NCBI GenBank assembly: GCA_963580285.1
Contig: OY757010.1
Span: 150,663,596 to 150,727,595, forward strand
DNA length: 64,000 bases
Direction: 5' to 3'
Origin: Lucinisca nassula
Taxonomy: Eukaryota; Mollusca; Bivalvia; Lucinida; Lucinidae
Positions 1,774 to 59,200 of this stretch are shown in pieces. The notes under the pieces were generated by a model. That model worked only from the letters and a program-made list of their open reading frames with translations, ran no database searches and had not been told where the DNA came from. Both the position numbers and the translations under genes were made by a program. Positions within the stretch are counted from its first letter, which is position 1. Each line of letters begins with the position of its first letter.

Positions 1774-1977
1774 TTAATCTTTATCCTGCTGAACACAATA
1801 ATCTCAGATTTTGCAAATGATCAGATGACTTCTGAAGAAGCCATCTGATGAGGATCTACACTGTCATTCAGTTTGTGAATTTGAACAAATACATGTACAT
1901 AGTATCAAGTAATTTGATTGGTTGATAGTCAGAAATGGGTGCAGTGAAATTAATTTATTCAGCAGGACAAGGGTTTA
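1774..1977. mobile_element. TTAA-type core MITE, family 4 (diverged)
   Basis: Starts near TTAATCTTTATCCTGCTGA and ends with TTCAGCAGGACAAGGGTTTA. The centre is a palindrome AGATGACTTCTGAAGAAGCC, with arms resembling CAAACAGTGTAGATCC. One arm of the core is eroded in this copy. Flank phrases (AAGTAATTTGATTGGTTGAT) match the copies at 2259, 10638, 32302, 35417 and 56559. Confidence 0.7.
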
Positions 1978-2258
1978 TTATTGGTTATATGAATTCATAT
2001 AACATTAAATACAGACAGATAGTTTGGGGCTTTGTACAGTTTCTAATTGTTGTGATTTGATAATTTGTAAATAATAATTGTTATGTATAATTCAAAGCTG
2101 CCAGGGAAAAATTATCTTCCTATTCAAATCAGACCTCAGAGTGATTGCATAAAATTCTCATCTTATTTTCAGCGCTCTAGTTGATAAGGATTATTGAAAA
2201 TAATTCAGGAATTATAGTTTTCTTGTAGCCTCGTAAAATATGTTGTGGGTACTCATAA

Positions 2259-56200: not shown

Positions 56201-59200
56201 TAGCATTTAGTTTTACACTGTTCAGTGCTTGCCGTTCTGTGCAAAAGAGTACAGTTTTTAACAAAACAACCGAATAATTGCATTAGAATGGGGATAACTG
56301 TAATGCAAAATTGTCAATTGGTGAGGTACATCATCTGGTTCATCGCAAATTCCGTCTGATGTCTCCGCTGATGCATCATCGTAAAACAAAATTTCCCATC
56401 GCAAAACCACCAATTTACCTCCACAAATGACAATTTTGAATACAGGTATCCCCTAACTGATTGCACAATTATGGAAATCTATGAACTATTATGTACTCAT
56501 TGCCCTGAACCAAGTTATCAGTCAGTGAAAAGTATAGAGAGACAAAATTTCAGTTCTATTAACCCTTATCCTGCTGCATTAATTTTGCCACACCCATTTC
56601 TGATTATCAACCAATCAAAATACTTGATATAATGTTTCATTCAAATTAGCTAATTAATTGACAACCAGTGTAGATCCTGATCTGGATGTACACAGTTTGG
56701 AAGGGTAGGTGGTTGTTGTGTTAAGCGGGAAAAGGATTAAATGCACCTGCGTATGTAATGCAATGTCCAATTTGATAATGTAAAAATATTTTGCAGTATA
56801 TTCCGCAATTTACTGGTGGAAATCCAGTCTTCATGTAACATTGATTTTCATTGGTTTGGATTTATGCAGCTCACTGTGCTTACCGTCTCGGGCATATAGA
56901 ACACTGTTTTTGAATATAGCAAGTGAATAAGTGCATTAAAATGGAGAATACTCTATTGAAAATTGTATTTGCGGAGGTAAATCTATCGTTTAACTGGCCC
57001 ACATTCTGTTTTACGCCTCCACCAATGAACATATAAAACAAAACTTAACCTCCCCAATTGATATTTTTGGATACTGATATCCCCTAACTGAATCATTATG
57101 GAAAACCATATTAATACAAATTGATAACGTACTTAGGCATGAACTGAGTAACCACTAAGTGAAACGATAACAAAACTATTATGTAATCATAAAATCAGCA
57201 AAGAGCACTGTAGCGAAATAAGCAATGACAAGCAGCCTCCATGACAAGTCTGTGAAATGATTACCCTTGTAAAGTCCTCCATATGTAGGGAAAGTCGGGA
57301 TTTACAAGGGTATACATTATTTCCGTTCAAAACCATAGGACTAAAGTTGTGGGTACTCGTTAGAACCTCCTCTTTGACTGCAGGGAGAAGTATCAGATCA
57401 ATACATGTCCAAATAGTGCACAACGAAGTCTGATCTGACAGTGGCTGTGCGGGCTCAACTGTCAATGAAAAAATGCACCTAGCAAAGATTAAGAAGATCA
57501 GGCCAGACTGATCTTTGTCTTTGCTGGTTGTATGTTTTCGTAGACAGTTTGTTTCTATGCAGCTCAAATGATATAGGAAATGGAACAGGAGCTGTCACAG
57601 GACACTGGTTGGTTTGGAGTTTAATCACTCAACACTAATAACCCTTTTTGTACCAAACGGAACCTTCCTCCTCATATATAGCAGGAGTCCATTTCTAAAT
57701 TTTGGGGTGACAGGCTGTGGTATCTTCAAAATTGATTTGGAAAATGGCTGAACTTTCTGCAAAAAGTGTAGGCCCTGATAAGACGCCGCATTCTGCGGCA
57801 TATGAATGCGGCATCTCGTCTGGGCCTGCACTGTGCCAAGGTACCTGTTTTGGGGTTTCCGGTACAAAATTGGTTAACTCTTATCAATTAGCTACAGCCA
57901 TTTCTTACTATCTGTTAATCAGATAACATGATACAATGTTTTCGTCGAAATTCACAAAGTGAATGACAAACCGTGTAGATCCTGATCATATGGCTTCTAC
58001 AGAAGCCATCTGATCTGGATCTACACTGTTTGCAAAGGTAGGACTTGTCATGAACAGCAGGAAAAAGGTTAAGGCCTTCTTCAAACGCCATCTGATCTGG
58101 ATCTACACTGTTTGCAAAGGTACAGTACGGCTCAGGTATAAGAACCAAAAAACTCTTTATTCCGAATCTCGGCGTTTCGAGTACTTTCAAAAACACTCGG
58201 AATTGTTCCGAGTATATGTATATATTCGGCGGACACTCCTCGAAAACACTCGCAAGGTCCACGGTATGCGAAATTTCGCGAAATTATTCCGAGTCGTAAT
58301 ATCGTACCTGGAGGCAATATTTTCTCGCGAAGTTATTTGGAAATACTCGGAGGAATTGGACGAAATACCTGGGCATTTTTTTTGTTTATTTAATGTTCTT
58401 TTACCATCATATATATTTATATATAATTATAAGATAATAATTATCACTGATAGTTATTATAATGTAAACAATGTCAAAAGTCAACAAAGAGGTAATCATT
58501 AATTACCCAGGGTGTGAAACTACACAGTGATTCCAAACAAGGGAATCAGTGGGGCATGACGAGTACATACAACTCTTTCAAGTCCGTAATTGAAAGCATG
58601 TTGAACATCATAAAATTACAGGAAAATCGGTCATTTTGAACTCAAAATTTCTCCATGTAATTTTGATATTTTCAAAAAATAGAAAATTATTTTGATATAA
58701 TATAATCATTTGTCTTTCATTCTTTAATAATTTTAATGTGAAGTATTATCGGACAATTGAGAAACAAATAATCAAAGGTGATAACTGTCAGCGAAATTTT
58801 GACGGGTTTCGGCCGCCATTATTGGCTTCTTTTAAACTGCAAAATCGGTCATTTTGAACTCAAAATTTCTCCATGTAATTTTAAGATTTTCAAAAAAAGA
58901 AAATTATTTTGATATAATATAATCATTTGTCTTTCATTCTTTAATAATTTTAATGTGAAGTATAATCGGACAAATGAGAAACAAAATATCAAAGGTGATA
59001 ACTGTCAGCGAAATTTTAACGGATTTCGGCCGCCATTATTGGCTTCTTTTAAACTGCAAAATCGGTCATTTTGAACTCAAAATTTCTCCATGTAATTTTG
59101 ATATTTTCAAAAAAAGAAAATTATTTTGATATAATATAATCAGTTGTCTTTCATTCTTTAATAATTTTAATGTGAAGTATTATCGGACAAGTGAGAAACA

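Follow-up and report, generated by a model that had tools for sequence, protein, structure and literature searches.

A palindromic core shared by miniature transposable elements with different ends and target sites in the bivalve Lucinisca nassula

Miniature inverted-repeat elements (MITEs) with different ends and different target sites share an imperfect palindrome of 65-68 nt, typically a 67-nt hairpin, in the genome of Lucinisca nassula. MITEs are usually held to owe nothing but their ends to a transposase, the sequence in between being arbitrary filler. The explanation that we favour, with some reservation, is that founders of unrelated MITEs captured this core on a few ancient occasions, and that core and flanks were then amplified jointly. 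These observations suggest that MITEs with different ends, and apparently with different enzymes, can gain and keep a common internal part.

Results

Abundance of the core

We analysed a 64-kb stretch (G000:C1:150663596-150727595) of the 2.93-Gb genome, referred to here as the window. A reading made from the sequence alone had reported about 40 copies of the palindrome in it, and the palindrome proved real. A profile scan of the window gave 45 core calls, 29 of them with two arms, and the arm GCAAACAGTG, with at most one mismatch, matched at 69 places against 5.35 expected, a number that none of 100 shuffles equalled. Exact paired arms occurred five times, against 0 expected and about 1.5 per 64 kb on average over the genome, so that the window is richer than the genome as a whole, the gap ranges being slightly unequal in this comparison. 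The core does not lie at the centre of the elements, as had been supposed, but is off centre in families 1-6, where the consensus flanks measure about 103-122 nt on one side and about 39-75 nt on the other.

Exact-ended cores were found at 69,813 places in the whole genome, and the reversed control gave 0. A random sample of 17 stretches of 10 kb (170 kb) contained 16 two-armed and eight one-armed cores, six of the 16 two-armed cores lying in one stretch. Extrapolation from the two-armed cores gives about 275,000 genome-wide (Poisson 95% interval 157,000-447,000), and addition of the one-armed cores gives 413,000 copies (265,000-615,000); both intervals are too narrow, as copies cluster. No match to a 23-nt core pattern was found in collections of prokaryote and viral contigs. 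The core was not recognised among published repeats in the literature searched, most subscription papers lying outside that search, and it was not found in the accessible part of a paper on bivalve transposons (PMC10294476).

Flank families

Families were set by separate profiles of the left and right flanks, by tests on consensus flanks and, for the right flank, by a test at the level of single copies. Flanks were modelled apart from the core because whole-element profiles drifted together via the core. Single-linkage clustering of flanks was rejected as a family definition, since nested copies link everything. The sequence-only reading had described six families with unrelated outer sequences; by flank comparison these reduce to four sets, mutually without flank homology past the terminal motifs in the consensus tests, as family 1 is homologous to family 5 and family 2 to family 3.

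Set A comprises families 1 and 5, which are TA-bounded and of one architecture, and whose consensus flanks are homologous (z 12.7 left, 12.3 right). TA is present at both ends of the consensus sequences of the two families, as a putative target duplication that would fit Tc1/mariner or another TA superfamily. Copies of family 1 (TACCGTAAAAATCC type) lie on the plus strand of the window at 9985-10201 (core 10099-10163, tip type T1), at 42600-42823 (core 42717-42784) and at 29057-29259 (left edge approximate), the last with a stem-internal deletion in its core at 29169-29220. Family 5 (TACCGTATTTACC type) is represented by a plus-strand copy at 46380-46581, in which a family-5-type core (46485-46551) stands between flanks homologous to family 1, and by a minus-strand copy at 8895-9112, whose core (8934-9000) has its loop inverted relative to other family-5-type cores. 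Six cores are of the family-5 type and carry the label F5: those starting at 2962, 8934 and 46485 in family 5, the first with a left flank that is not established, and those at 31350 and in loci L006 and L025, which belong to the hAT-like family 8 described below. The right flank resembled that of family 1 in all six copies (13-17 of 22 nt, p <=0.0006), three of them hAT-like, and four out of four controls were not significant. When single copies were used in a profile search, the family 1/5 likeness was weak, with E 7.3 on the left and 0.38 on the right.

Families 2 and 3, which begin with TTAACCC, form set B (left z 14.7, right z 19.2); the left profile of family 3, when iterated, becomes that of family 2. 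Variant ends of this lineage occur in loci L002, L005 and L027. Family 2 (TTAACCC...GGGTTAA) has plus-strand copies at 2527-2754 (core 2647-2713, tip type T2) and 24804-25033 (core 24927-24993). A third, at 32324-32548 on the plus strand (core 32442-32508), is nested in a family 4 copy, with TTAA at 32324-32327 and again at 32545-32548; the TTAA duplication that had been deduced from this nesting is thus confirmed. The homologous family 3 copy lies on the plus strand at 36356-36584 (core 36477-36543; left edge approximate).

Set C is family 4, with TTAACCC ends. Its copy (TTAACCCTTGTCCTGCTG...) that is split by family 2 spans 32302-32734 on the plus strand and has its core, of tip type T3, at 32628-32695. 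A chance reading frame that runs through family 4 cores on the minus strand of the window, at 57918-58283, matches an ENA protein of 105 aa (P0001), the contig of which is 221 kb long (E 7.9e-8; 65% over 40% of the query; one protein from two candidates). As judged by this match, another deposited record may also contain the family 4 element.

Set D is family 6, the true end of which, in the consensus, is TTAACCCTTAAGACRCC / TTAACCCTTAAGAC, backed by a genome-wide family-6-like match and by the end of a piggyBac partner. The motif TTAAGACRCC, earlier taken for the end of this family, sits inside a TTAACCCTTAAGACRCC end. Two copies with approximate edges were placed in the window, at 7972-8211 on the minus strand (end ...CCCTTAAGACATC, core arm from 8042) and at 3817-4049 on the plus strand (core 3916-3976). 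A further family 7, seen at two loci (L003 and L011), is provisional, and its boundaries are not established.

The carriers qualify as MITEs by their size (about 200-240 bp in families 1-6 and 381 bp in family 8), terminal repeats, high copy number, lack of a transposase gene and target duplications, the evidence of duplication being the nested TTAA case of family 2 and the 8-bp duplications of family 8.

The window also contains repeats of other kinds. Tandem repeats with a spacing of about 156-174 bp, mostly 166, occupy positions 2-460, 21010-22000, 26060-28700 and 52300-54070, and at 39072-39575, 43813-44274 and 16192-16481 there are tandem arrays whose units measure 21, 25 and 29 bp. A 300-nt repeat is present in three copies (41598-41897, 45477-45776 and 48500-48799), of which the first two hold, on the minus strand, a stretch resembling a tRNA (41827-41899 and 45706-45778); it is possibly a tRNA-derived SINE. 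Broken open frames between 61925 and 63949 resemble a non-LTR retroelement, and the first of them contains a DVESNPGP motif, which we take to be 2A-like.

Carriers of the piggyBac type

TTAACCC was found 90-119 nt from a complete core at 22,183 places in the genome (11,217 + 10,966), and a scrambled heptamer of the same composition at 339. TACCGTA together with a core gave 1,683 places, for which the scrambled control matches the make-up of TTAACCC and not that of TACCGTA. For a hAT-like 14-mer at a distance of 110-139 nt from one arm of the core the count was 2,834 places; this pattern was without the right arm, and comparison with the other two counts is therefore not strict. The large counts of ends together with cores therefore indicate that the carriers are large families and not an oddity of the window. 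At G000:C1:10503717-10504023 three matches to TTAACCC plus core follow one another at a spacing of exactly 79 nt, perhaps as a tandem array of core-bearing units.

Families 2, 3, 4 and 6 have a TTAA target and a CCC-type terminus, as piggyBac-type elements do. The genome contains 119 matches to PF13843 (piggyBac), many of them within open frames of 550-611 aa. Two of the three piggyBac ends that were read are TTAACCC and the third is TTAACTC. A 606-aa piggyBac family (G000:C2:103630098) has the 5′ end TTAACCCTTAAAGCGCCGATCGCAACAAATGT, to which one of the two family 6 ends is similar with a z of 6.5 beyond TTAACCC; for the other family 6 end the likeness was not significant (z 1.5). A 597-aa family starts with TTAACCCTATTGC, and a 578-aa family with TTAACTCATTATCC, which is weakly like a variant of lineage B (z 3.0, one of 27 comparisons). 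The exact 9-nt core arm was absent from the four stretches beside piggyBac genes (L033-L036). The TTAACCC carriers look to be of the piggyBac type, with one specific partner link: the basis for family 6 is this partner, at one end, and for family 2 its TTAA duplication, families 2, 3 and 4 otherwise being assigned by TTAACCC.

A hAT-like carrier

A carrier absent from the sequence-only reading, family 8, was found at 31197-31593, a span that includes an 8-bp duplication. The element itself, TAAGGCTGACACGATTAATCG...GTCAGCCCTA, has TARGGCTGRCACGATTAATCG ends, lies on the plus strand at 31205-31585 and contains a family-5-type core at 31350-31416. It is inserted in a family 1 core, so that the left copy of its plus-strand target duplication GTCTGCAC (31197-31204) lies inside that core; the right copy is at 31586-31593. 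The duplication is exact in two of three copies (GTCTGCAC and TACTTAAC) and agrees in 7 of 8 nt in the third. Family 8 thus has the 8-bp target duplication of hAT elements, and its ends, we assume, resemble theirs. In the three hAT-like copies the right flank has 16-17 of 22 nt in common with family 1, and the flank beside the family 8 core is like that of family 5, as tested on the right side and as judged by inspection on the left. Family 8 looks like a case of core capture in which part of the donor flank was kept.

Core and flank compared

When families 1, 2, 4 and 6 were compared, the two arms of the core were 0.80 and 0.75 identical and the 30 nt outside them 0.34 and 0.28. Within families the arms were 0.86 identical and the flanks 0.58 and 0.53. 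From the core alone, the family of the flanks was predicted correctly in 44 of 50 cases, with a maximum of 25 in 1000 shuffles, and five of the six misses fell within the lineage of families 2 and 3. These 50 are the full-length labelled cores from 69 two-armed cores, after removal of seven duplicate calls at overlapping loci; seven of the 69 were without a family label.

Flank matches that reached the core side ran into a core arm in 130 of 134 cases. This count leaves out 16 matches that stopped earlier, includes 15 loci that had been fetched by their core, which biases it towards core presence, and draws on family 2 and family 3 profiles that hit partly identical copies. The four misses were the family 1 core into which family 8 is inserted, a damaged core and two cases without a core within 130 nt.

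In a tree of the cores, families 4, 5 and 6 each formed one clade, and families 1, 4 and 6 were split from families 2, 3, 5 and 7 at 99/97; in these core tests family 5 is represented by the six F5 cores, three of which are hAT-like copies. The split resides in the tip of the hairpin: over the outer 25+25 columns families differ by 0.09-0.21, whereas the 18 tip columns are 0.40-0.61 apart between types and 0.16-0.35 between families of one type. Three tip types were distinguished, T1 in families 1 and 6, T2 in families 2, 3, 5 and 7, and T3 in family 4. Of 62 labelled cores, 59 had the tip call expected from their type, the exceptions being an ambiguous core in each of families 2 and 3, and one F5 core that was called T3.

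Incongruence between core and flank trees had been put forward as a mark of core transfer, and it was found in part. Families 1 and 5 have homologous flanks and different tips, so that their kinship conflicts with the core tree. However, a core clade of families 1 and 5 was not rejected by the AU test (p 0.098). With the outer arms alone neither this clade (p 0.121) nor one of families 2, 3, 5 and 7 (p 0.079) was rejected, and the conflict between core and flank therefore rests on the 18-column tip. Family 1, moreover, is locked to its tip: genome-wide, its end occurs with T1 at 807 places and with T2 at one. Exchange of core or tip would therefore date to the founding of families, and is not ongoing in bulk in family 1. 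The family 5 end occurs with T2 at 30 places and with T1 at 12. Ten of the 12 T1 matches span 131-132 nt, and those with T2 range from 128 to 156 nt, with 143 as the commonest length; the 12 places may represent a separate subfamily.

Structure of the hairpin

Eight core foldings gave energies between -46 and -66 kcal/mol, with z between -10 and -15, and a family-6-like core at 9885-9952 on the plus strand, for which no flank of its own was recognised, folds at -66.5 kcal/mol as RNA. Over 26 outer pairs in 48 cores, 89.2% of cells were paired, as against 86.2% in shuffles and 27-37% when the arms were slid. Change on both sides was seen in 11 of the 26 stem pairs (7.0 in shuffles) and in 58 stem cells (23.2 in shuffles); there was no excess of further stem pair types (25 against 23.7). 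The column pair 18-51 was unpaired in 40 of the 48 cores. A T.T mismatch stands there in 40 of the 50 full-length labelled cores, across five families and in all 12 cores of family 4. Two family 2 cores have A.A at this position, one of them also with a reversed loop, and in one family 5 core the loop alone is reversed; the count of loop orientations excludes family 4, in which the motif overlaps. These inversions of loop or mismatch in three cores indicate that arms or tips can invert. At gathering score, Rfam gave two tRNA matches in the window and none inside the cores. Matches to miRNA models at 9800-10800 were weak and below the cut-offs.

The hairpin may act in cis as an aid to its carriers, as a cruciform or hairpin that joins the ends, as a site of protein binding or as a hairpin RNA, so that elements with it out-amplified others. 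This reading is compatible with capture, and we hold it tentatively. The strong folds and the retained T.T mismatch agree with it, as do the two-sided changes if paired change is read as selection for the fold; a transposition role for the internal region was proposed for the coral CMITE elements, in the accessible part of that report (PMC2872659). Against this, single copies decay in one arm, paired change is also expected if one arm serves as template for its partner, the three inversions suggest recombination of arms, and the cores belong to no Rfam family at gathering score. Rather doubtful is the stronger proposal that the hairpin would be a selected and exchangeable transposon module comparable to the conserved domains of SINEs, acquired by miniature elements of the piggyBac, TA and hAT-like types because its fold aids amplification, and with stem and tip evolving and traded as units.

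Discussion

Origin of the shared core

We infer that founders of unrelated miniature elements, mobilised by different transposases, each acquired the palindrome, and that this would have happened a few times and long ago. The acquiring elements would have been of the piggyBac type (TTAACCC, TTAA sites), TA-bounded, and hAT-like (8-bp sites). The most likely route would be nested insertion, or template switching in gap repair between neighbouring copies. Once a family had been founded, core and flanks would have multiplied jointly as a single element, and paired substitutions in both arms altered the stem of the source elements. The sharp edges of the core, and its tight link to the flanks, argue against frequent transfer at present. 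The sharing of the core, its sharp edges, the target-site classes, the coupling of core to flank and the paired changes are observed, whereas the route and number of captures and any benefit from the hairpin are deduced. Capture itself is deduced, as a core-less ancestor has been established for no family.

Simple descent from one ancestral element, the ends of which drifted or were remodelled until only the core could be recognised, is an unlikely account of the whole. The sequence-only reading would have been overturned had all flanks aligned end to end; they do so inside the pairs 1/5 and 2/3, where descent holds, and not between sets. Descent would also fit with the polarity of the core with respect to the longer and the shorter flank, which is constant across lineages in 46 of 50 cores, with the TTAACCC start common to families 2, 3, 4 and 6, and with the outer arms, which alone reject none of the groupings tested. 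However, the four sets are without homology in their consensus flanks past the terminal motifs, and identity falls at the edge of the palindrome. TA, TTAA and 8-bp target sites require different transposases, and drift cannot yield all three; the target-site classes therefore argue against drift of the ends of one element alone. The claim that elements of different target-site classes have the core in common is upheld, their flanks being non-homologous across the four sets.

That the core is itself a mobile, foldback-like palindrome inserted into several MITEs seems very improbable. In favour of this reading, its edges are sharp, seven of 69 two-armed cores have no recognised family flank, three core-like palindromes stand in tandem with short spacers at L009:672-899, and two flank pieces lack a core (L008:1204-1286 of family 4 and L026:1906-1938 of family 1). 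Against it, no target duplication at the core edges, which had been proposed as a thing to look for, was seen by eye in six family consensus sequences, and the two flank pieces may be truncations or core-less relatives.

One hairpin is present in elements of three target-site classes and probably in hundreds of thousands of copies. This makes the importance of the insides of MITEs directly testable, and provides a system for following how non-autonomous elements change their ends.

Comparison with known systems

The closest precedent is CMITE, known from two corals, Acropora millepora and A. palmata, and comprising MITE families whose terminal repeats differ and which share an internal region of 75 nt (PMC2872659). 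In the accessible part of that report the elements occupy TTAA sites, one family is tied to a piggyBac-like transposon, tandem arrays are described, and variants of the internal region correlate with family, with one exception. The likeness lies in different ends around a shared and better conserved internal region. The systems differ in that CMITE is described from TTAA sites only, whereas the L. nassula core is also carried by TA-bounded and 8-bp hAT-like elements, and in copy number, given as about 1600 in A. millepora as against about 275,000 by extrapolation in L. nassula. Identity of the two was ruled out: a 60-nt CMITE consensus showed no likeness to the cores of three families (z -1.29 to -0.03), and it lacks such a hairpin (-11.0 against -59.9 kcal/mol).

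Among bivalves, the haemoglobin genes of Lucina pectinata contain a MITE-like repeat of 210 bp with a central palindrome of 77 bp, and another repeat, which has a 68-bp palindrome and a short segment in common with the first; as far as the accessible part of the paper goes, its authors found no target duplications (PMC4732748). Compared by description, these repeats may be of the same kind as the L. nassula core, or may even contain the same core.

An analogy is offered by the highly conserved domains of SINEs and by MER6, a mariner MITE of chimeric origin that contains a V-SINE domain, as described in the accessible part of PMC6887750. The likeness lies in a conserved domain that SINEs carry and that recurs inside a MITE. 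The L. nassula core differs in that the SINE domain is derived from retroposons, whereas the L. nassula carriers tested are all DNA elements and the shared module is a palindrome.
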